Shown one piece after another: positions 4,719 through 23,539 of a stretch of DNA of 23,574 nt. Each line of letters opens with the position of its first letter. The first letter of the stretch is position 1. The notes under the pieces were generated by a model. The model was not told the origin of the DNA. It worked only from the letters and a program-made list of their open reading frames with translations, and did no database searches. The DNA is from a virus. The position numbers and the translations under genes were made by a program. Location: IMG/VR virus record IMGVR_UViG_3300031886_000044, positions 1-23,574 of that record; one strand, 5' to 3'.

Positions 4719-7700
4719 ATGGGCAAATCATCACCACCTCCAGCACCTACACCGCCAACCGCATCGGAGATTTCCGCCGCGAACATAGAATCAGCGAAGG
4801 GGCTGAAGAGACTTGAACGTGCCATGCAGTTTGGTGAAGAACTCACCAAGGAAGGCTATGTGCGGCAACAGTTGGATGTGCCGGAAGGTGCAGAACCTGT
4901 TTACGACTACCAAGATGTTCAAACCTCGATGCCCGAATATATCGTTGATGCGAGTGAGGGGGCTGCAAGGTTAAAGGTTGGAGATGATGGTAAGATTATT
5001 GGTCAGTGGCCCGACATAGATAACCCCGATGCGGAGGGGTCTTACATGGGAATGAACTGGTGGGAAGCCCAAGCCCAAGCCCAAGAAGAGGGTAACGATG
5101 ATTGGACAGGGACACACGCAGAGTCCGGCCAACAGTACGGAACCACGCAAGTTCAAACACTTTCGGGGTACGATGTTCCCGATGGTGAGGGAGGTTCAGA
5201 GTATCAAGAGGCCAACGCTTATTTCAAAATCAATGATGACGGTACTCGCACGCAGGTAAACCGTGATGAAGCTATTGATGCTGATTTCACAGGGATGGGC
5301 GACACTGATCTTGCCCGAAAGAAATGGGAGTTTGAGCAGGAAACATCTCCGGAACGAGCGCAGTTCATGCTCGATCTTGCCGAGCAGTTCGGCCCCGACT
5401 TTGTAGATCAAGCAAAGGATTTAATTGAAAGGAGTGATCCCACTGGATTTGCTGCAAGAGAGTTGCTTGGCCAACTCGCACAGGAGTACACCCCCGGAGA
5501 GTTACCCGATGCCCCTGTGCTGGATGAGATGGGTGAGTATGCCGCCAAGGAGCAGGTTGGAGATCGCCCCACTCTTGGGGAGGTAACTGAATCTCCTCTA
5601 TACGATAGAGCGGGAGACATGGATGCTTTGGGGAGAATTACAGAAACCCCAACCTACCTTGAATCCGAATATGGGCCGGGTTACGAGAGGGCTGGAGAGA
5701 TGGATGCGCTCGCAAGGCAGGGAGCCTTTGGGGGATATGAACGGCAAGCAGACATGGAAGCTCTCGCAAGAGCGGGAGACATGGACGCTCTCGCAAGGCT
5801 TGAGTCTTTTGGGGGATTGGAAAGAGCCGGGGAGATGTCTGACCTAGAACGTGCTTCAGCGATGGAAGGACTCAGTAGGCTTGGAGAGTTCGGTGGCTAT
5901 GAACGTGCTGGGGAGATGAACGCACTGGAGAGAGCCGGAGAGATGGGAGCGTTAACCCGATTGGGAGATGCGCCTACCATGCGTGAGCTTGGAACTGGGC
6001 CAGCCTTTGAGAGAGCGGCTGCAATGGACGCACTGGAAAGGTCCGAAGCTGCACCCGGACTGGAGAGGCTTGACGACATCCCCGAAATAGGACTCGACCC
6101 CACTTCACTAGCTGGGCGTAGATTTACAGAGCAACAGTTATTGGATCGCGCACAATCCGGACGGTCGGGAAGATTAATGGCTGAAGAAGCCAGCCGATTA
6201 GCTAGAGGCAGACAAGCTGCGAGCGGAAACATCTTTGGCGGCGGAGCAGTCTTACAAGAAGCAAGAGCTGTACGGCAAGCAGAAGAAGCAGGGCAACGGC
6301 AGGGGTTATCTGACCTCCTCGGCTTCCTTACTTCCGGTCAAACCGCAGGAGATTATGAGTCGAGGGTGGCACAGCAGAACTTGATGAACAGGCTTACGGG
6401 CATTCAGCAGAGAACTGGAGCAACTCAAGCAGAGTTCGGAATGGGTCAGCAGGTTCTAGGACAGCGCAATGTTGCAGCCTTGCAGGAACGCGCCGATGCG
6501 TTGGCAGCACTGGGGCAGCGTAACCAAGCGGAGCAAGCCGAGTACGACAACTTAACTAGAGAGATTAGTCAGATCAACCAAGCGCGACAAGCTGGGTATG
6601 GGATGGAAGGCGCACGGGTAGGCAGTGAACGATCTGCGGAACTCGCAGAACGAGCTGACCAACTCGGAGCAATCGGCCAGCGGAATGTTGCTCAAGAGCG
6701 TGAGTATCAAGCTGCACTTTCAGCCATGCAACAGCGCAATCTCGCCGGAGGAGGAGAGTACGGCTTTGAAGCACAAAGAACGGCGCAGATGAATCAAGCT
6801 GCGTTGCAGGAACGCGCTGACGCATTAGGGGCTATCGGTCAAAGGAATCAAGCGGAGGAGCGTGAGTATCAATCCACCCTCCAAGCCATTCAGCAGAGGA
6901 ACCTTGCAGGGACAACCGAGTACAGTCTTGAAGCTCAACAAGTTGCACAGATGAATGACGCTTCCTTGAGAGAGAGAGCAGACGCACTCGCGTCTCTCGC
7001 TCAACGGAATACAGCGCAGGAGCGGGACTTTCAAGCTGCGGTGCAAGCATTGCAACAAAGGAACCTCGCGGAAGAAGGCGAGTACAATCTTGAAGCGCAG
7101 CAGTTGGCTCAAACCAACCAAGCACAGTTGCAGGAAAGAGCCGATCAGTTGGGGGCTTTAGGGCAGAGAAACGAAGCTGAACAGGCCGAGTTTGCCAACC
7201 TCCAAGCCACCCTCGCTCAAGTAAACCAAGCGCGGGAAGCACAGTTTGCGACAGATACCCAACGGCAGGAATTTAATACACAGCAACAGCTTCGCGAGAG
7301 AGCCGATGAGTTGGGTGCTTTAGCCCAACGTAACCAAGCACAAGAGCAGGAGTATCAAGGACTTTTGCAGGGGCTATCCCAGCAGCAGGGAGCGAGAACC
7401 GCAGGATTTGCGATGGACGTTCAAGGGGCTGACCAGCGCAACCAAGCAACACAAGCTGACTTCGCCAACCAGCAAGCAGCCTTGGCGCAGACAAACCAAG
7501 CGAGGCAGCAGTCGTTCAGTAACGCGATGCAGCGCACGATGACGCAGCAGCAAATGCAGCAGCAACAGATGGCTAACCTTCAGAGCTTTAGCGGGTTGGC
7601 TCCTGTTTCCAATCAGTTTGGAAATCTAGGGGGAGCGCAACAAGCTGCGTTCGCTAACTTTAACCCTGTTCAGTATCAGCCTACAAATACGATGGCTTTA

Positions 7701-7880
7701 TTGCAGGGTCAACAGCAGTTGCAGGGTAGCATCTTTGGCAACCAAGCTAACATTTGGGGGCAACAAGCACAGGCAGCAGCTCAACCGAGTGGGTTTGGGT
7801 CAGCCTTTGGGACTATCCTTGGAGGGTTCGCTGGAGGAGCAGGAGCAGCGTGGGGCGCGAAGAAGTGGCCCGGAGCATAA
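4719..7880 (+). CDS. Large repetitive internal virion / ejection-type protein
   Basis: A 1053-aa protein with RBS AAGG nine bases before ATG. It has four regions. Residues 1-290 are acidic and start with a Pro-rich tip (SSPPPAPTPPTAS). Residues about 290-450 hold repeats of an (E)RAGEMDALAR type. Residues 586-909 hold six units of exactly 54 aa, each with an ERADxLgalgQRNxAxxxEy core, predicted helical or coiled coil. The Gln-rich tail ends in a Gly/Ala-rich hydrophobic segment (FGTILGGFAGGAGAAWG). Position, size and composition suggest a core or ejected protein; a Gly-rich C-terminus could insert in a membrane. No enzymatic motif was recognised. The role is inferred from context with the two following large genes. 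Confidence 0.6.
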   Translation: MGKSSPPPAPTPPTASEISAANIESAKGLKRLERAMQFGEELTKEGYVRQQLDVPEGAEPVYDYQDVQTSMPEYIVDASEGAARLKVGDDGKIIGQWPDIDNPDAEGSYMGMNWWEAQAQAQEEGNDDWTGTHAESGQQYGTTQVQTLSGYDVPDGEGGSEYQEANAYFKINDDGTRTQVNRDEAIDADFTGMGDTDLARKKWEFEQETSPERAQFMLDLAEQFGPDFVDQAKDLIERSDPTGFAARELLGQLAQEYTPGELPDAPVLDEMGEYAAKEQVGDRPTLGEVTESPLYDRAGDMDALGRITETPTYLESEYGPGYERAGEMDALARQGAFGGYERQADMEALARAGDMDALARLESFGGLERAGEMSDLERASAMEGLSRLGEFGGYERAGEMNALERAGEMGALTRLGDAPTMRELGTGPAFERAAAMDALERSEAAPGLERLDDIPEIGLDPTSLAGRRFTEQQLLDRAQSGRSGRLMAEEASRLARGRQAASGNIFGGGAVLQEARAVRQAEEAGQRQGLSDLLGFLTSGQTAGDYESRVAQQNLMNRLTGIQQRTGATQAEFGMGQQVLGQRNVAALQERADALAALGQRNQAEQAEYDNLTREISQINQARQAGYGMEGARVGSERSAELAERADQLGAIGQRNVAQEREYQAALSAMQQRNLAGGGEYGFEAQRTAQMNQAALQERADALGAIGQRNQAEEREYQSTLQAIQQRNLAGTTEYSLEAQQVAQMNDASLRERADALASLAQRNTAQERDFQAAVQALQQRNLAEEGEYNLEAQQLAQTNQAQLQERADQLGALGQRNEAEQAEFANLQATLAQVNQAREAQFATDTQRQEFNTQQQLRERADELGALAQRNQAQEQEYQGLLQGLSQQQGARTAGFAMDVQGADQRNQATQADFANQQAALAQTNQARQQSFSNAMQRTMTQQQMQQQQMANLQSFSGLAPVSNQFGNLGGAQQAAFANFNPVQYQPTNTMALLQGQQQLQGSIFGNQANIWGQQAQAAAQPSGFGSAFGTILGGFAGGAGAAWGAKKWPGA
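5590..6090 (+). repeat. Short (E)RAGEMDALAR-type protein repeats
   Basis: Within the 1053-aa gene, units of about 9-20 residues recur: DRAGDMDALGR, ERAGEMDALAR, RAGDMDALAR, ERAGEMSDLER, ERAGEMNALER, ERAGEMGALTR, ERAAAMDALER. Some are separated by FGGYER or FGGLER spacers. The pattern is helical and charged. The corresponding DNA is similar but not identical between copies. Confidence 0.75.
6474..7445 (+). repeat. Six tandem 162-bp (54-aa) units
   Basis: Equivalent residues start at 6474, 6636, 6798, 6960, 7122 and 7284, exactly 162 bases apart with no insertion or deletion. Each unit begins (A/Q)xLxERADxLxxLxQRN and contains a second xxNxAxxxxY half-motif, so it may itself be a duplicated half of about 27 aa. 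The next unit (from 7446) is degenerate. An exact period suggests duplication followed by selection on length, as in a helical rod. Confidence 0.9.
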
Positions 7881-14115: not shown

Positions 14116-14556
14116 ATGGACAAAGAGACGAAGAGAACAGGGAGCGTTGCGGAGCTTGCTGTATCTGCCAAGCTCGTATCCTTGGGCTATAACGTAAGCA
14201 TACCTTTCGGGGAATTACCTTACGACATAGTAGCTGAGAAGGGTGGGAAGCTGATTCGGGTACAAGTCAAGAGCGCAACATTATCCAAGTACGGCAGCTA
14301 CCGCTGCTCGCTTACGCATGGCAGCGGGAGCATCAAGACAAAGTACACGAAGGATGTGTGCGACTTGATGATCCTCTATGCCCCTTACTCACAAGACTAC
14401 GCAGACATACCCGATGACGGGTTCTACGTTATCCCCGTCAAGGCGTTGATGAAGAAGAACGCCTATCACGCAACCCTGCACCCGTCCGGTATGGGTAAAG
14501 GTAATAGGAAGATATGTAAATGGGAGGAGTTCAGAGATGGGTGGGAAGGTATTTAA
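14116..14556 (+). CDS. PD-(D/E)XK-fold nuclease, small
   Basis: A 146-aa protein. The N-terminus matches the core of small PD-(D/E)XK endonucleases of the PDDEXK_11 / intron-endonuclease-like type: TGSVAELAVSAKLVSLGYNVSIPF with Glu13 in the first helix, PYDIVAEKGGKLIRVQVKSA with Asp37 and Gln50-x-Lys52. The QxK form of the third motif is known in this superfamily. Asp37 and Lys52 would bind metal and activate water. RBS AAAGGGTGG lies just before ATG. The gene follows the palindrome, which could allow separate control from the virion genes. It may process DNA or act in host takeover; the substrate is unknown. Confidence 0.6.
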   Translation: MDKETKRTGSVAELAVSAKLVSLGYNVSIPFGELPYDIVAEKGGKLIRVQVKSATLSKYGSYRCSLTHGSGSIKTKYTKDVCDLMILYAPYSQDYADIPDDGFYVIPVKALMKKNAYHATLHPSGMGKGNRKICKWEEFRDGWEGI

Positions 14557-14803: not shown

Positions 14804-15021
14804 ATGGATGCGGTAATGAGACAGAGAACCTTCCCTCTCTGCTTACCGAGCTGGTAGTATTCCTTCTTGGCTTCTTCATTGCCCCAGCGATACTCGCCGC
14901 CAGCCACTTCGCTCCTATGCCAAATCAACTTCTTGCGTCTCTCATCTATACAATCCAAGACCTGCCGTAGCTCCCATATTGAGTAGGGCTTCTTCACTGG
15001 GCGAGTTTCATCGAATAACAT
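14800..15021 (-). CDS. Small hypothetical protein, last gene of the leftward unit
   Basis: A 73-aa protein. ATG at 15021 is preferred over TTG at 15027 because the RBS GGAGG then sits nine bases upstream. Mostly helical and basic: PYSIWELRQVLDCIDERRKKLIWHR, then EAKKEYYQLGKQRGKVLCLI. It overlaps the end of the DnaA-like gene and is the last gene before the convergent virion block. No family recognised. Confidence 0.55.
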   Translation of the reverse strand: MLFDETRPVKKPYSIWELRQVLDCIDERRKKLIWHRSEVAGGEYRWGNEEAKKEYYQLGKQRGKVLCLITASI

Positions 15022-15430
15022 TTTCAAGCTCCTCCGTTACCTCAAGCATCTTCTTGTGCATAAGCTCCTTCTCCCTCTCCCTGTAAGGCTTGTAAAACTT
15101 CTTGAAGTTGTGGAACGCATCGGTGATGCGCAGCGAGTATCCGTCATTCACGCACAACTCCAGTGCAGATTCAATCTTGTTGTAACCGTATAAAGCGGTA
15201 ACGTGATCCTTTCCCATCGAACACCCTATCCCCACAAAGCTCATGTCAGCTTTCCTAAGAAGCCAGTACACTGTTTGCCTTGCCATAGTAAGTCTCGTGT
15301 CTCCTCTTGGGACGTTCATTATCTCATCGGCATCAACATCGAACGAGATGCTCGAAGAGATGACGGCCATTCTTGTGAGGGTTAGCTCCCTCTCTGTTGG
15401 TTGTCTACTGTTTTTCATATCTCCTTTCAT
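15008..15430 (-). CDS. Stand-alone DnaA domain IV (origin-binding) protein
   Basis: A 140-aa protein. Residues about 33-90 match the C-terminal helix-turn-helix of DnaA, which reads the DnaA box: Met49-Ala50-Arg51-Gln52 followed by TVYWLLRKADMSFVGIGCSMGKDHVTALYGYNKI. This aligns with the ARQxAxYLxR, S...IG..FGgRDHTTV and KI features of the DnaA signature, keeping Arg51, Gln52, Ser64, Ile68-Gly69, Asp75-His76 and Thr78. No AAA+ ATPase domain is present, so it could bind DnaA boxes without opening DNA itself. The C-terminus is a charged helix. Start 15430 has a G-rich RBS; ATG at 15418 (MKNSRQ) is an alternative. It could recruit or block host DnaA, or bind a phage origin. Confidence 0.75.
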   Translation of the reverse strand: MKGDMKNSRQPTERELTLTRMAVISSSISFDVDADEIMNVPRGDTRLTMARQTVYWLLRKADMSFVGIGCSMGKDHVTALYGYNKIESALELCVNDGYSLRITDAFHNFKKFYKPYREREKELMHKKMLEVTEELENVIR

Positions 15431-15498: not shown

Positions 15499-15801
15499 CT
15501 AGAATGGTGACGCTACGGCTGGAGCTTCTGCTGTTGCAGCAGCCTCAAGCTGAACGCCTTTCTGTACAGCCAAGCTGACACGAGGGGTTCCTTCTTGGTC
15601 TTCCTCGACCCATCCGGAGATGAAGAGGTTCACCAATCCGTTCTCGTCTGCTACGTCCTTCAGCAAATTAAGGTCTAGCTCAATGATCTTACCTTTATGG
15701 TCGGGTTCACTGCTTCCTTCACGCTTGCGGTCGTTCTTGTAGAGGTAACCCTTCTTGGCTACCTTCTCGTACTTATACTTCTTCCTTATTTCTTCGGGCA
15801 T
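15499..15801 (-). CDS. Small hypothetical protein, possibly OB- or SSB-like
   Basis: A 100-aa protein. ATG at 15801 is chosen because an upstream start at 15858 would overlap the nuclease gene by 53 bases, while this start has an RBS (AAAGAG) and leaves a four-base gap. The sequence KGYLYKNDRKREGSSEPDHKGKI, then NLFISGWVEEDQEGTPRVSLAVQKG, recalls small phage proteins with an L-(Y/F)-KN(D/E)K start, a GW central strand and a final Y/VSL strand. The C-terminal 20 residues are an Ala/Pro/Glu tail ending in Phe, like acidic tails of single-strand binding proteins but weakly so. Function uncertain. Confidence 0.5.
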   Translation of the reverse strand: MPEEIRKKYKYEKVAKKGYLYKNDRKREGSSEPDHKGKIIELDLNLLKDVADENGLVNLFISGWVEEDQEGTPRVSLAVQKGVQLEAAATAEAPAVASPF

Positions 15802-15805
15802 AATA

Positions 15806-16399
15806 CTATCTCTTTCGTACCTTCTCCTTGATCCAGTCTCCCCATTTATCCATCGCATCCACGATGGACAGTAACCGTTCCTTGACGGCGGGTGTTACGG
15901 GTTCATTGAGATTTATTGCTTTCATCGCCTCGACTTGTCCGGCGATGACATAGCTAAAGTGTTTGATTGCTGTACAGTTATCCTTTCGTGCACACCAGCG
16001 ACAGTAATCACACGGCCAAGGTGAGCGGGTGGGGTCGTTAACGGAGTCAACGATGGCGTATACTATACTCTCTGCTTCCTTTATATCAATATCAAAAGTC
16101 TCTACATCCCTGTAGCGTGAGTAAACGATGTGACATTTCAGCTTCTTATCCCCGAACTTCTGCATGACACCGAGTGCATACGCAGCCATCTGCTGCTTGT
16201 AGTCCCGCTTCATGCCTGTCTTGAGATCGAAGAGATGTCCCTTGCAGTAGGCATCCATGCTGCCGAAGCTGATCTCTTCATCATCGCGCATGATGGGAAC
16301 CTGCTGTTCACTGATAAGCTTCTTCCTCCCTGCCACTGACAGGATGTAGGATGCAGCCCACGCTATCTCATCGGGGTAATCCTTAACTGTCTTTGACAT
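15806..16399 (-). CDS. C-terminal half of a RecB/Cas4-like PD-(D/E)XK exonuclease
   Basis: A 197-aa protein carrying the catalytic core of the RecB/Cas4-like (DUF2800-like) nuclease family: GSMDAY with Asp49, FDLKTG with Asp58-x-Lys60, then Gln69/Gln70 and Tyr74 in the YKQQMAAYALG helix (the QxxxY motif). A C-terminal cysteine group follows at Cys130, Cys133, Cys136 and Cys142, as in the iron-sulfur cluster of AddB and Cas4, where one more Cys lies near the N-terminus. The N-terminal part with that Cys and the GTxxHE motif is missing and appears as the separate gene at 18120-18326. A TGA lies just upstream in frame, so this gene cannot be extended to include it. RBS GGAAGG. It overlaps the previous gene by 17 bases. 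Likely a recombination exonuclease. Confidence 0.7.
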   Translation of the reverse strand: MSKTVKDYPDEIAWAASYILSVAGRKKLISEQQVPIMRDDEEISFGSMDAYCKGHLFDLKTGMKRDYKQQMAAYALGVMQKFGDKKLKCHIVYSRYRDVETFDIDIKEAESIVYAIVDSVNDPTRSPWPCDYCRWCARKDNCTAIKHFSYVIAGQVEAMKAINLNEPVTPAVKERLLSIVDAMDKWGDWIKEKVRKR

Positions 16400-16574
16400 T
16401 CTTTGCCTTCCAAGCCTTCACACGTTTCTCTGCCAATCGATCCTTCAGCCATTGGTTGTCTGAACCCTTCACGCCTATGATGGCTGAGTCCACTTCACTG
16501 CGGCTCGCGTGAGGATCAGTCAGCACTCTCATGCCAATCCTCTCCCATTCCTCCCTTAGTTCCTGTTCTTTCAT
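16383..16574 (-). CDS. Small hypothetical protein, 63 aa
   Basis: Starts ATG overlapping the stop of the 29-aa membrane protein as ATGA (16571-16574), so probably coupled. Charged and helical: KEQELREEWERIGMRVLTDP, then DNQWLKDRLAEKRVKAWKAKN. No family recognised. It overlaps the nuclease half-gene by 17 bases. Confidence 0.5.
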   Translation of the reverse strand: MKEQELREEWERIGMRVLTDPHASRSEVDSAIIGVKGSDNQWLKDRLAEKRVKAWKAKNVKDS

Positions 16575-16660
16575 ATTGATGTTGCTACTTTTATTATTAA
16601 CCCTATAAACCCCAGCACTACTAATAGCACTGCCACCAGTTCCCAGTCTTTAGCCTTCAT
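16571..16660 (-). CDS. 29-aa single-span membrane protein
   Basis: Reads MKAKDWEL, then a hydrophobic segment of about 19 residues (VAVLLVVLGFIGLIIKVAT), then SI. The start overlaps the end of the zinc-ribbon gene by 11 bases, and the stop overlaps the next start as ATGA. GGGAGAAG lies immediately upstream of ATG, a short RBS spacing. Neat coupling on both sides and an uninterrupted hydrophobic span support a real gene. The role is unknown: a small lysis accessory, a superinfection or membrane modulator are all possible. No charged pore residues are visible. Confidence 0.55.
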   Translation of the reverse strand: MKAKDWELVAVLLVVLGFIGLIIKVATSI

Positions 16661-16865
16661 CTTCTCCCATTAGAAAGTCTCTTATGTTGCTGCTCAGTGG
16701 GGGTCGCTTACCCGTGTCGCGGTAGTAGCCGCACTTAACGCAGATCAGTTTGCCCATCCAGCTATCGGGGTTGAACCCCATCTTTCTGCTTGCCTCGTCA
16801 TCACTGTTCTCGACAGTGATACTCATGGGGTCGTCACAGAGTTTGCAGTTTGTTTCGTATACCAT
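16650..16865 (-). CDS. Small zinc-ribbon protein
   Basis: A 71-aa protein with two CxxC pairs (Cys7-x2-Cys10 and Cys42-x2-Cys45), typical of a zinc ribbon or rubredoxin-like knuckle, separated by an acidic loop. RBS AAAGGAA lies eight bases before ATG. It overlaps the end of the upstream nuclease gene by 43 bases. It may bind nucleic acid or protein; no specific family recognised. Confidence 0.6.
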   Translation of the reverse strand: MVYETNCKLCDDPMSITVENSDDEASRKMGFNPDSWMGKLICVKCGYYRDTGKRPPLSSNIRDFLMGEDEG

Positions 16866-17341
16866 ATGTGTTCCTTTGCCTTGTCCATAGGGATGAAGGC
16901 GTTATCCACTTCCTTCTCCCCTCCGTTTATACACTTCTGCGTCTTGGTCTTCCGCACATCAAAGTCCACGAGGAACTTCCCCCGATTGTCAGTGAGCTTG
17001 ATGGTTAGAATCTTCTTCTCCGGTATGAGGTAGAGCATCCCGATGAAGGGACAGCAGATCAATTCGCTGATGAGCTGGCCTCTCAGTATCTTGGCATGGG
17101 TTACCAGCCACTCGTTACCGAAGTTGCAGATGAGTTGCTCCGTGGTCATGTCCCTTGTCTTCACCTCCACAGCACAGTCCACCCACTGGTTCTTGTGTAG
17201 ATAGAAGAACCCATCGATGGCAGCGGGTTCCCGCTTGTCAGTCTCAAGGAACCTGTAGTCGGGGTAGAGATTACAGAATGCTTCTATGCACTCATGCTCA
17301 TAAGCTAATGCGCTTTGACCGCGAGGCGTGTTGATGTTCAT
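16823..17341 (-). CDS. PD-(D/E)XK-fold nuclease-like protein
   Basis: A 172-aa protein. ATG at 17341 (MNINTPRGQ) is preferred over an upstream start at 17380 because it overlaps the previous stop as ATGA and has GGAAAC upstream. The restriction-endonuclease-like core is visible: helix AYEHECIEAFCNLYPDY with Glu15/Glu17, then AAIDGFF (Asp43) and CAVEVKTRDM (Glu59-x-Lys61). The C-terminal half is beta-rich (FIGMLYLIPEKKILTIKLTDNRGKFLVDFDV). It lies in the block that separates the two halves of the RecB/Cas4-like nuclease. It could be a DNA-processing enzyme, or a homing-type nuclease involved in that rearrangement; the latter is speculative. Confidence 0.55.
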   Translation of the reverse strand: MNINTPRGQSALAYEHECIEAFCNLYPDYRFLETDKREPAAIDGFFYLHKNQWVDCAVEVKTRDMTTEQLICNFGNEWLVTHAKILRGQLISELICCPFIGMLYLIPEKKILTIKLTDNRGKFLVDFDVRKTKTQKCINGGEKEVDNAFIPMDKAKEHIWYTKQTANSVTTP

Positions 17342-17697
17342 GCTGTTTCCAGTGGTAAATCCAGTTGAGGGTCTTCCCAATCGAGTGCTCCCTTGGCATC
17401 CCCTTCAAGAAGCGCACCATAGTCTATGCAGTCTGCTGCGGATTTCTTGTAGTCGAAGAACCAAGCGAGGGATGGGTGTGCATGAGCGAACAGCCTAGAG
17501 TAGAATGAGTCATAGGTATTGATGAGGGGTTGGTGGGTGTTCCACCTTATAGTCTCAGTAACCGCTTTAACGCCGCCTTTAAGCTTCCCTGCCTTAATGA
17601 GGGAAAGGATTGTAGCCTCATACTTGTTCCATATTTCGGGGTTGGTTAGGTGGTAGTCCACAAACTTTGCGGCCATCCTTCTGTTCTCAATGCTCAT
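17338..17697 (-). CDS. Hypothetical phage protein, 119 aa
   Basis: Starts by ATGA overlap with the previous stop (17694-17697). The sequence FVDYHLTNPEIWNKYEATILSLIKAGKLKGGVKAVTETIRWNT, then YDSFYSRLFAHAHPSLAWFF, matches a widespread phage and prophage family of unknown function. In that family an N-P-x-(V/I)-(Y/W) start is followed by a G-x-K-A-(V/I)-x-E-x-(I/V)-R-W-x-T motif and a NxxYSxxYARLF-like motif. The present copy keeps the RW and RLF..HP features. The C-terminus is acidic. Role unknown. Confidence 0.55.
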   Translation of the reverse strand: MSIENRRMAAKFVDYHLTNPEIWNKYEATILSLIKAGKLKGGVKAVTETIRWNTHQPLINTYDSFYSRLFAHAHPSLAWFFDYKKSAADCIDYGALLEGDAKGALDWEDPQLDLPLETA

Positions 17698-17957
17698 CGC
17701 TTTGCAATCTCCTTGTAATGTTTCACCTGCTTCTCAAGCTCCTCGATGCGCTCATCCTTCTCCTCCATCTGCCTTGCGGCAGTCTCGACGTAGAACCAAA
17801 AGTCTATGGCTTCTCCGCGCAAGTCGTTGATGATGTCCTCCCTGTTGTCGAGGTTACCCCCGTGTTCCTCTTGCCCAGCATCGTACTTGGCTGGGGCTAG
17901 TTGATTGAAGCACTTGATGGCTTCATCTCTTATTTGGTTTGGTGTTCTTTCTTGCAT
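17694..17957 (-). CDS. Small helical protein with EHGG motif, possibly NTP-pyrophosphatase-like
   Basis: An 87-aa protein with a strong RBS (AAGGAG). Residues 24-36 read KYDAGQEEHGGNL, followed by DLRGEAIDFWFYVETA (about 45-60). This KYxxGQxEHGGxL plus E(A/x)IDxxxY pattern is common in small phage proteins that resemble the all-alpha NTP-pyrophosphatase (MazG-like) group. Only one helix pair with Glu/Asp metal ligands is obvious, so activity is not established. Residues 60-84 form a likely coiled coil. It overlaps its neighbours at both ends. Confidence 0.45.
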   Translation of the reverse strand: MQERTPNQIRDEAIKCFNQLAPAKYDAGQEEHGGNLDNREDIINDLRGEAIDFWFYVETAARQMEEKDERIEELEKQVKHYKEIAKR

Positions 17958-18115
17958 AGCATCTCCTTCTCTCTCCCCAACCAGTAAGCCGTGTTTTTGA
18001 CTTTCTTGAATCTTTTCATCTTCATATCTACGGAATAACAGTCGTGGTAATCCCCGTACTGTCCCGCCGTAGCCACTTTAACAAACTCCTTCACTAACTT
18101 ATCTGTCCATCTCAT
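17930..18115 (-). CDS. Small basic hypothetical protein, 61 aa
   Basis: RBS AAAGGA lies upstream of ATG; the gap from the previous stop is four bases and it overlaps the next gene by 28 bases. The sequence is basic (DMKMKRFKKVKNTAYWLGREKEMLCKK) with a WTDKLVKEFVKVATAG start. No family recognised. It is the first gene after the N-terminal half of the split nuclease. Confidence 0.45.
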   Translation of the reverse strand: MRWTDKLVKEFVKVATAGQYGDYHDCYSVDMKMKRFKKVKNTAYWLGREKEMLCKKEHQTK

Positions 18116-18119
18116 TCTC

Positions 18120-18326
18120 TTATCCTTTCTTCTTCAACTGCTTCACCAGTGCGGTGTCGCCCAGTAGTTCCTCCAGTTTCTCATGGAGTTCCGTTCCCCT
18201 TATCGCTGCCGCCCCCACCGTTGACGACGACTTATAGCATGGACACTTAGCCATTTCGGGCAGGGAGGATGGAGGGAAGTCGGGGTGATGCGCCCTCTCA
18301 GTATGGTTAATGTCTTTCTCTGTCAT
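18120..18326 (-). CDS. N-terminal half of a RecB/Cas4-like PD-(D/E)XK nuclease
   Basis: A 68-aa protein. ATG at 18326 is chosen over TTG at 18329. It has exactly the features that open DUF2800/Cas4/AddB-like nucleases: a His-rich start (HHPDFPPSSLPEMAKCPCYKSSS) with Ser20-Ser21 and Cys28/Cys30, where these enzymes place the single N-terminal iron-sulfur Cys, then IRGTELHEKLEELLGD (Gly44-Thr45...His48-Glu49), the GTxxHE motif. It stops after KQLKKKG with no catalytic Asp or DxK motif. The missing core is in the gene at 15806-16399, which lacks this part. The two products may assemble into one enzyme. Alternatively this is a decaying fragment, although its intact RBS, GTxxHE motif and Cys argue against that. 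Confidence 0.6.
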   Translation of the reverse strand: MTEKDINHTERAHHPDFPPSSLPEMAKCPCYKSSSTVGAAAIRGTELHEKLEELLGDTALVKQLKKKG

Positions 18327-18558
18327 CAATCTCTTCCCCTTCTATTACCCTAACTTCCTTCTTGAAGTGTTTGTTGTAAGATTCACCAGCTAAAGCCCCT
18401 TCTTTCCATGCTTGGTAAGCCCACTCTCTCTCCCTTATATACGGGTTATCCCATTCGTCACTTGTCTCACCGCGCTCCGTAACGCACATGAACCCATCAA
18501 GCCACGCACAATCATAAAGCACTATCCCAACCTTATAGTAACCGGGGTCTGTAATCAT
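18307..18558 (-). CDS. Hypothetical protein, 83 aa
   Basis: Starts ATG after a short AT-rich leader with no clear RBS, downstream of a strong hairpin. The sequence YYKVGIVLYDCAWLDGFMCVTE, then EREWAYQAWKEGALAGESYNKHF, is acidic and mixed alpha/beta. The C-terminus overlaps the nuclease N-half gene by about 20 bases. No family recognised. Confidence 0.5.
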   Translation of the reverse strand: MITDPGYYKVGIVLYDCAWLDGFMCVTERGETSDEWDNPYIREREWAYQAWKEGALAGESYNKHFKKEVRVIEGEEIDDRERH

Positions 18559-18574
18559 AATATTAAATTGGTAA

Positions 18575-18601
18575 GGGTGAGTGGGTCGCGCCCACCCACC
18601 C
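18575..18601 (-). terminator. GC-rich hairpin after the annealing-protein gene, weak terminator or processing element
   Basis: An 11-bp stem with one mismatch (GGGTGAGTGGG with CCCACCCACCC) closes a five-base loop. It lies six bases after the ERF stop and 16 bases before the next start. On the leftward strand it is followed only by TTACCAATTT, a weak U-tract. It could attenuate or stabilise mRNA rather than stop all transcription, because co-directional genes continue. Confidence 0.4.
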
Positions 18602-18607
18602 TATTAA

Positions 18608-19186
18608 TTATGGTTTAACAAACAGTTCATCCGCCTGTTTATCCTGCTTCTTGTAGTTGGTTCTACTCTTCTTGTTCTTGGAAGCCTTGAATGAGTCGTC
18701 GCTCATTTGAGTCTTGCCTGTGGCTGCGCTGCCATCGTCATCAATCTCCTCAGAGTCTATGCACAGAGCACCCTCAAGAAGTATCCTCATTGCGTATGTA
18801 TGTGCTCCCTTTCTATTCTGCATATTGTCTGTCTTGGGAAGTTGGCATACGCTTGTTAGGCATTGCTCACCAAGTATGAGCTTGAGCTTGAGATAATCTT
18901 CACGAGGGTAATGAGTCTTACTTATCACCTCCGTATCATCACCATCGGCATTGGGCTTCCACTCCTTAACTGCTGCCTCTGTTCTTTCGGGAGTGAACCC
19001 CATCTCAAAGTGTACGAGTATCCCTTCTTGATTCAGTGCCGCTCGGCAAGAGTCTATGAAGTCTTTGAGCATAGCGTAAGTGCTATTGAAGTGCGGGTTA
19101 AACCCCGAGCACGGGGCTGTGGTGAAGTTCAACTGTGCTCGCACGAGCGCAGTTCCGATGTGTTCTAGTTCTTTTTCTTTTTGCAT
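18608..19186 (-). CDS. erf: ERF-family single-strand annealing protein
   Basis: A 192-aa protein. The N-terminus fits the ERF superfamily of phage recombinases: IGTALVRAQLNF, then NPHFNSTYAMLKDFIDSCRAALNQEGILVHF (residues 30-60), the NPxFxSxYAxL motif and following helix. Residues 124-151 read NRKGAHTYAMRILLEGALCIDSEEIDDD, matching the family G(S)AxTYAxRYxLxxxLGIxxxxDDD motif. Such proteins form rings on single-stranded DNA and anneal complementary strands. The last 40 residues are a Lys/Asp-rich tail. Its neighbours, a resolvase-like nuclease and a RecB-like nuclease in two parts, fit a recombination module. Confidence 0.8.
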   Translation of the reverse strand: MQKEKELEHIGTALVRAQLNFTTAPCSGFNPHFNSTYAMLKDFIDSCRAALNQEGILVHFEMGFTPERTEAAVKEWKPNADGDDTEVISKTHYPREDYLKLKLILGEQCLTSVCQLPKTDNMQNRKGAHTYAMRILLEGALCIDSEEIDDDGSAATGKTQMSDDSFKASKNKKSRTNYKKQDKQADELFVKP

Positions 19187-19503
19187 TGTTCTATTAGTTT
19201 AAAGAACGCTTCGGCTGACATGGAAACGATCCACTCCTTGAGCTTGCCTCCGGTGCGGTAGGTTGCTACGACTGGTAGCTTGCCACCGCAATCTGTCTTG
19301 GCTTGCATGAGGGCCGTCTCTACGTTGGGCCGTTGCGTATATTTTACTTCGAAGTGGAGATGAGGCAGGTCTTCACAGATGACATCCGGTGCGGATTCGT
19401 CACCACTGAATTGCTGTCCTCTCCTTGAGTTGGGATAGCCAGCTAATTTTAGCTGATCTCTCCACAACCTCTCTCCACGTTTTCCTTTCTCTCTACTGTT
19501 CAT
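19165..19503 (-). CDS. Holliday-junction-resolvase-like PD-(D/E)XK nuclease
   Basis: A 112-aa protein. ATG at 19503 (MNSREKGKRGE) is preferred over GTG at 19518 because it gives the typical N-terminus of this family. Motifs are Glu11 in KRGERLWRDQL, RRGQQFSG, then APDVIC with Asp40 and HFEVKYTQ with Glu52-x-Lys54. ALMQAKTDCGGKLPVVATYR follows, the QAxxD and PVV pattern seen in phage Hjc-like and VRR-like nucleases. Length fits a compact resolvase. It overlaps both neighbours, between the alpha-CTD-like gene and the ERF gene, which supports a role in recombination or branched-DNA cleavage. Confidence 0.65.
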   Translation of the reverse strand: MNSREKGKRGERLWRDQLKLAGYPNSRRGQQFSGDESAPDVICEDLPHLHFEVKYTQRPNVETALMQAKTDCGGKLPVVATYRTGGKLKEWIVSMSAEAFFKLIEQCKKKKN

Positions 19504-20035
19504 TAAGATTTTTGCCACAATCAGAAAGTTTTTTGGTTGGTAAAGCGGAAGGCTCTTTGAAGGAGTCGATGATCAACTGTTGCGTTGCATAAGTTAACAG
19601 CTTTCCAGTGAAATGGTTTTGAAACTCCTCCTCACGCACTGTCTCGATCATTTCCCTTTTAAGTTCTCGCACCTCTTTTTCAAGAGCCTCCAGTCTCTTC
19701 CGCTTCTTCTCCTTTACAGGGTTCAATAACCCCACAAACGCACAGACCTCTATGTGGGTACGCCATCCGTAGTTGTGGGGGCGGGGCTTCCTTTCGGGGT
19801 GAAGCTTGCCGCTTACTATCGCAGCCTTAACCTTATCCACTGTGTCGTACTCATCGCTTTCTTTGTATTCGTTGTCGCTATAATAGGAATAATTCCCGAC
19901 CACCTCTCTATGCTGATAAAAACAATTAAATGCGCGGATGCTTAACCCGTCGAACTCTTTTTTAAAGCGGTCATACCTTACGTCCCACTCGGCACACTTC
20001 TTTTCAAAACTTGATACCTCATCTAAGTCTTCCAT
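19493..20035 (-). CDS. RNA polymerase alpha-CTD-like DNA-binding protein with coiled coil
   Basis: A 180-aa protein with RBS AAGGA eight bases before ATG. Residues 30-104 resemble the C-terminal domain of RNA polymerase alpha: GLSIRAFNCF (residues 30-39) corresponds to the LxxRxxNCL helix, with Arg34 and Asn37 at the places of E. coli Arg265 and Asn268. Helix YDTVDKVKAAIVSGKL (63-78) comes next, then HNYGWRTHIEVCAFVGLL (87-104), matching the helix-hairpin-helix NLGKKSLxEIKxxLxxxGL with Gly90, Arg92 and Thr93. About 24 residues are inserted between the first two helices. Residues 107-140 form a coiled coil, and the tail is unstructured. It may bind UP-element-like DNA or host polymerase. Structural confirmation is needed because the similarity is by eye. 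Confidence 0.55.
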   Translation of the reverse strand: MEDLDEVSSFEKKCAEWDVRYDRFKKEFDGLSIRAFNCFYQHREVVGNYSYYSDNEYKESDEYDTVDKVKAAIVSGKLHPERKPRPHNYGWRTHIEVCAFVGLLNPVKEKKRKRLEALEKEVRELKREMIETVREEEFQNHFTGKLLTYATQQLIIDSFKEPSALPTKKLSDCGKNLNEQ

Positions 20036-23170: not shown

Positions 23171-23539
23171 CTATTCCTCCAATGCTTTCTTTAGTTTATC
23201 CCAGTATTTAAGGGTAGCTTGTTTCTTGTAGCCATTAGGGCCACCGTTCCATATGCGAGCGTAATCCTCCAACGTTGGCGGTCTACCTACCCGCTTCTCA
23301 TTTGCATAGATGCGGGTATATATAATCAGACAAGCCTCAGCTTTCTGTCTGTCGTAGCAATCCTCCGGAAACTTGAATTGCTTCCACCCTTTAGCCTTGC
23401 GATACCTGTTCACATCCATGATGCACTCTTTCTGTATCTGCAATGGACCATGGCTTGCGCCATGGTCACCGATTGCGCGGTCATTACCTCCCGATTCCTG
23501 CATGATTAGGGCTAGTACGAATGCTTTCCATGTTATCAT
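23171..23539 (-). CDS. Lytic transglycosylase / lysozyme-like endolysin
   Basis: A 122-aa protein with an excellent RBS (AAAGGAGGAAT). The sequence fits a compact goose-lysozyme/SLT-like fold: LIMQESGGN with likely catalytic Glu15, GDHGASHGPLQIQ (GPLQI 31-35), a middle helix with Cys residues (ECIMD, EDCYD, EACLI), and ARIWNGGPNGYKKQATLKYWDKL (about 94-116). It would cleave cell-wall glycan. No cleavable signal peptide: the catalytic Glu is only 15 residues from the start. It would therefore need a holin, or be virion-associated. The start overlaps the stop of an upstream frame as TAATG. Confidence 0.7.
   Translation of the reverse strand: MITWKAFVLALIMQESGGNDRAIGDHGASHGPLQIQKECIMDVNRYRKAKGWKQFKFPEDCYDRQKAEACLIIYTRIYANEKRVGRPPTLEDYARIWNGGPNGYKKQATLKYWDKLKKALEE

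Follow-up and report, generated by a model that had tools for sequence, protein, structure and literature searches.

In a 23,574-nucleotide stretch of viral DNA (IMG/VR virus record IMGVR_UViG_3300031886_000044, positions 1 to 23,574; hereafter the window), the minus strand carries two genes of 68 and 197 amino acids, which we refer to as the N part and the C part, together with a block of small genes that separates them (Table 1). Residues are numbered separately in each part. The N part lies before the C part at a distance of 1720 bp, and the seven small open reading frames (ORFs) in this gap are all on the same strand, an arrangement that a first-pass annotation of the DNA had described correctly (with a spacing of about 1.7 kb). 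The same annotation held that the opening motifs of a nuclease stand only in the shorter gene and the remainder only in the longer one, and this reading of the sequence was borne out. The N part contains SSLPEMAKCPCY and RGTELHE, that is, two N-side cysteines (C28 and C30) and motif I with H48, while the C part contains motifs II and III, a QhxxY motif and a C-terminal Cys group, seen as GSMDAY, FDLKTG, QQMAAYALG and CDYCRWCARKDNC (C133-x2-C136-x5-C142).

DUF2800, known from phages as a PD-(D/E)XK nuclease-like gene with other genes of DNA metabolism nearby (PMC8093625), matched the C part alone (PF10926; 8e-9, 35.5 bits versus a curated cut-off of 21), and the joined N and C parts scored 37.8 bits. 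The phage exonuclease family phrog_69 also matched the C part (2e-12). These matches began only at model position 76 for DUF2800 and 175 for phrog_69, and the DUF2800 positions beyond 280 of 368 found no match in the C part. The C chain falls in this family lacking the N-terminal motif region, which a separate gene supplies throughout the clade described below. No family model matched the N part alone; joining it to the C part took phrog_1706 from no match to 3e-7 and phrog_3953 from 0.13 to 2e-5. When 50,697 phage records were searched with the N part, only two places were recovered (E values of 1e-4 and 4e-4), in the Akkermansia phages Chantilly and Chambord, and both fall within the exonuclease gene that is the best match of the C part as well. 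On the 387-residue Chantilly exonuclease the N part aligns to residues 53-89 and the C part to residues 104-241, in order and without overlap.

Using an alignment of eight fused relatives as the reference, we found that the profile of the N part maps to columns 15-59 of the fused family (probability 98.4, E value 9e-15) and that of the C part to columns 73-263 (probability 99.9, 1e-37). The N profile scored 90.3 against the fused relatives, whereas shuffling the columns of the N alignment 100 times gave 17.2 at most. Since the two parts map to adjacent segments and the shuffles score far lower, the match to the family is beyond chance. A search of solved structures by sequence gave no useful match, so that among structural comparisons only those of folds, given below, were informative. 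Judged by these comparisons, the 197-residue gene is the body of a DUF2800/phrog_69 RecB-family exonuclease and the 68-residue gene is its missing N-terminus. The proposal of the first-pass annotation that the parts make up one nuclease was thus upheld by the hidden Markov model searches of each part and of the joined pair, which placed them in one family rather than in unrelated ones.

The RecB-family motif set (motif I His, motif II Asp, D-x-K and QhxxY) is complete only with both chains, H48 coming from the N part and D49, D58, K60, Q70 and Y74 from the C part. Likewise, the Cys pattern of iron-staple nucleases is present only in the two chains together, as C28 plus the C-x2-C-x5-C group. 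These four cysteines, the most widely common to the fused relatives, agree with the four-Cys pattern originally claimed, but each part holds one more than that claim allowed, C30 and C130, respectively. In a predicted structure of the C part alone, the core (residues 11-120) was confident, with predicted local distance difference test (pLDDT) values mostly >90, and the Cys region (residues 121-160) was poor (~50-64), which is consistent with a missing partner. This model resembles Argonaute-associated Cas4-family proteins, Cas4 and AddAB, and more weakly MGME1, RecE and lambda exonuclease. A model of the fused relative L057, confident in its N-terminal residues 1-70 (pLDDT ~87-98), matched AdnAB, Cas4 SSO0001, RecE and lambda exonuclease; the template modelling scores of these fold comparisons were modest, mostly 0.3-0.45.

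Searching IMG/VR with each part uncovered a clade of uncultured phages in which at least 26 further contigs carry both genes, on one strand, with N before C and a gap of 496-1878 bp. Every contig that spans both places has both genes and none lacks either; the contigs with a single part (L014, L033, L065 and L079) end before the place of the other, and L022 has a cut N part. No N motif was found upstream in the open frame among this clade's C frames. Relatives in which the long part has its own N-terminal motif, or in which the short part is absent or decayed, had been named beforehand as outcomes that would tell against a split enzyme; neither was seen in this clade, and all close relatives have a conserved, intact short part. 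Among 20 N sequences there are 36 invariant positions, including C28, C30, G44, T45 and H48, and the tail is variable; H48 and C28 are invariant in the N part of the split clade. The C sequences of this clade keep all RecB motifs together with C130, C133, C136 and C142, and G46, D49, D58, K60, Q70, Y74, C133, C136 and C142 are invariant across the split clade and the fused relatives. The motifs are thus as intact as the first-pass annotation had said. The median ratio of nonsynonymous to synonymous substitution rates was 0.18 for the N part and 0.12 for the C part, and both parts are under purifying selection. This selection, and the integrity of the motifs across relatives with 56-89% identity in the C part, make it very improbable that the split marks a decaying gene whose dead nuclease survives as two remnants, although the window clade has lost a C-terminal tail, as decay might have it. 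The distance matrices of the two parts were correlated (r = 0.83; 0 of 5000 permutations as high), which speaks against independent replacement of one part and is by itself no evidence of contact.

The window and eight other split contigs (23-39 kb) each have one N match, one C match and no other member of phrog_69, in records that are possibly incomplete. We likewise looked for a complete exonuclease besides the split one, which would then be dispensable, and saw none in the window or ten related records, which may be incomplete. One scan of bacterial and archaeal genomes found no relatives, and we therefore infer no host.

We consider it highly probable that the products of the two genes are separate chains of a single RecB-family (DUF2800/phrog_69) DNA exonuclease, which assembles non-covalently. 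This is the best reading of the data and the one that the first-pass annotation had favoured: as both genes are present in all contigs that span the two places, the 68- and 197-residue pieces very probably form a two-chain assembly. We infer the physical assembly, the metal cluster, the activity and the substrate as follows. The N chain would supply the metal-ligand His of motif I (H48), its helix and one Cys (C28), and the C chain would supply the beta-sheet core with D49, D58, K60, Q70 and Y74 in addition to C133, C136 and C142. By analogy with Cas4 and AddB, the four cysteines would hold an iron-sulfur cluster or zinc, the latter also being possible (PMC3466216), and the staple would then be a bond between the chains.

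Several observations weigh against this two-chain enzyme. The fused relatives L055:4836-5819 and L056:4836-5819 have no N-side Cys (KSPRW in its place) and keep the three C-terminal ones, the motif-I His is replaced by Asp in L057 and the Akkermansia phages, and some Cas4 proteins keep their activity when the cluster is lacking (PMC4176176). A shallow alignment, among other things, might explain why the Cys region of the C-part model is of low confidence, and correlated distances are expected for any two co-inherited genes. The exchange of the motif-I His in some fused enzymes, the shortness and variable tail of the N part and the location of the RecB fold core in the C part could be accounted for if the C part alone were a working nuclease and the N part a retained fragment with another job, for example as a regulator of the C part or a DNA- or Erf-binding adaptor. 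We regard this as improbable, however: the most conserved N residues are the catalytic-motif and Cys residues common to the fused enzymes, no split relative has regained the motif in its C part, and no contig spanning both places has C without N.

Fused, overlapping and separated forms of the gene were all recovered when relatives were checked for the fused gene and for the boundaries of the block, as the first-pass annotation had suggested. In two relatives, L054 and L077 (57% identity of the C parts), the N and C frames overlap directly in different reading frames with nothing inserted. The N frame of L054 stops at a TGA (5003-5005) and its C frame starts at an ATG at 4995; in L077 the C start is at 4992 and the N stop at 5006-5008. 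In both, the protein position at which the C frame starts is that of the C part in the window. In a tree of the C part rooted with the fused rows as outgroup, for which the program warns of long branches among those rows, a branch (99/99) sets all 24 split rows apart, L054 and L077 (99/97) are sister to them (joined at 95/91), and the eight fused rows lie outside. Because of the shared break point and the sister placement, a single break, consisting of a frame change and a translation restart, explains both the split and the overlapping groups.

So the break would have come first and the variable block of small genes later. In the first step, a break at one point would have turned a single gene into two ORFs that overlap, with translation restart, a state kept in L054 and L077; small genes would then have entered the junction, some being exchanged repeatedly; and a C-terminal tail of ~78 amino acids, which is common to L054, L077 and several fused relatives, would have been lost in the window clade. 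This tail was not found as a third gene in the split-clade loci. Frameshifting could in principle join the two frames in L054 and L077, and the order and strand of N part, block and C part are constant, as might be expected if the parts became one covalent chain through splicing of RNA or protein or through ribosomes bypassing the block. Such joining is nevertheless very unlikely: a search of Rfam over positions 15500-18700, at E values up to 5, gave no match to group I or II intron RNA or any other RNA element at the junction; no intein domain was matched; and the N and C parts have their own stop and start codons around a block that is packed with variable ORFs and ranges over the gap lengths given above.

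The block itself, whose seven ORFs encode 61, 87, 119, 173, 71, 29 and 63 amino acids in the window, varies in content and length among the relatives. Families c1 and c2 are the commonest and c3 is frequent. One of three families, c4, c5 and c6, which have PD-(D/E)XK-like motifs by eye and are unconnected by BLASTP, usually lies between the parts (c5 in the window, c4 at L007:2044-2535, c6 at L017:5134-5535). The nuclease-like gene has no match in one relative. In L021 a 277-residue ORF with a c3-like end takes its place, in L052 the c6 gene stands before the N part and hence outside the pair, and in L054 a c1 gene lies ~3 kb upstream of the nuclease. From this pattern, the slot between the parts looks like a site of repeated gene exchange. 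The enclosed PD-(D/E)XK gene, offered by the first-pass annotation as a hint to the origin of the split, was rejected as its cause: the break is the same in the sister lineage, where nothing is inserted, and the gene is swapped among three families.

Table 1. Positions in the window of the two nuclease parts, the genes between them and the neighbouring recombination genes.
Feature	Position	Strand	Description
N part	18120-18326	-	68 amino acids; ATG start
C part	15806-16399	-	197 amino acids
Inserted block	16400-18119	-	seven small ORFs
Block gene c1	17694-17957	-	87 amino acids; in most split relatives
Block gene c5	16823-17344	-	173 amino acids; c4 or c6 instead in relatives
Block gene c3	16650-16865	-	71 amino acids; two CxxC pairs
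Block 29-residue ORF	16660-16571	-	read from sequence
Block gene c2	16383-16574	-	63 amino acids; adjoins C part, overlaps its start
SSB-like protein	15499-15801	-	phrog_18154; directly after C part
Erf-type single-strand annealing protein	18608-19186	-	upstream of N part; likely functional partner
RusA-like Holliday junction resolvase	19165-19518	-	phrog_244; same module

The order of RusA-like gene, Erf gene, nuclease parts and SSB-like gene is kept in most relatives. Given these neighbours, which place the nuclease in a phage recombination module as its exonuclease, its most likely role is to make single strands for Erf. It would prepare DNA ends for the annealing protein, as in the Red and RecET pairs, in which a RecB-like exonuclease also lies beside an annealing protein; here the annealer is of the Erf type and the exonuclease is in two genes. 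The PADLOC defence families gave weak matches only, to DruK and Cas4, and were set aside, the neighbourhood being one of phage recombination. The gene that follows the SSB-like one encodes a small protein (15008-15430) with the DnaA C-terminal DNA-binding domain (PF08299, 8e-7, slightly under the curated cut-off) and without the rest of DnaA; most relatives retain this gene. Elsewhere in the window, a plus-strand gene where the structural genes end (14116-14556) encodes a PDDEXK_5 endonuclease-like protein (7e-18), the structural region includes a 1053-residue protein with many imperfect internal repeats (QRNQAEQAEY, ERAGEMDALAR; 4719-7880), and a short protein with a match to the lysozyme-type Destabilase family (PF05497, 1e-6; 23171-23539) is a possible endolysin.

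The DUF2800/phrog_69 exonucleases, including those of Chantilly and Chambord, are of the same family by score, have the same motif order and are encoded beside a gene for a single-strand annealing protein. The members compared are single chains of ~310-390 amino acids, whereas here there are two chains, of 68 and 197, the break falls between motifs I and II and the tail is lost. The iron-staple nucleases Cas4 and AddB/AdnB are alike in having one N-terminal and three C-terminal cysteines (C-x2-C-x5-C), the RecB motifs and the predicted fold, but their four cysteines are in one chain rather than two, and no Cas gene was recognised near the locus. Identity as Cas4 was itself rejected, as the TIGR00372 score was 17 of 65 bits, below the cut-off.

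Other phage enzymes are also encoded in two parts around other DNA. The two-part products of Aeh1 nrdA, split by mobE, and of DNA polymerase 43A/43B are reported to be active, and activity is inferred for the T4 topoisomerase gene 60, split by mobA (PMC2988022); in OM43 phages a DNA polymerase is split with one small ORF between the parts (PMC10580990). These are different enzymes, in which the interruption is a homing endonuclease, an untranslated spacer or a single small ORF. Unlike them, the present case is a small nuclease domain cut between its active-site motifs and between its putative staple cysteines, with up to seven exchangeable genes in the junction and an overlapping-ORF stage that survives. 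In the Aeh1 nrdA type the homing endonuclease between the parts made the split, whereas here no homing-endonuclease domain was matched in the block genes tested and the sister lineage has the break without an insert. A literature search, with most subscription journals outside its reach, turned up no account of a DUF2800 or RecB-family phage exonuclease in split form.

Phage genes in pieces are known mostly for long enzymes tied to homing endonucleases, and the example here is a small nuclease domain, in which a split through the active-site motifs and through a putative metal staple has persisted under selection throughout a diverse clade. With the fused, overlapping and separated stages all visible, the way in which one gene became a two-gene enzyme is testable. 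Annotation would call the C part a truncated exonuclease and would miss the N part, which no family model matches alone. If the chains assemble, the pair would represent a RecB-family nuclease split by nature and might find use as a switchable enzyme in two parts. More tentatively, and with the odds somewhat against it, the N chain may be a separately expressed activator, the core staying inert until docking completes the active site and an interchain Cys-metal staple, and the junction serving as a landing site for exchangeable small genes. If the N chain is indeed such an activating subunit, the phage could use the supply of a small protein to time or adjust DNA resection.

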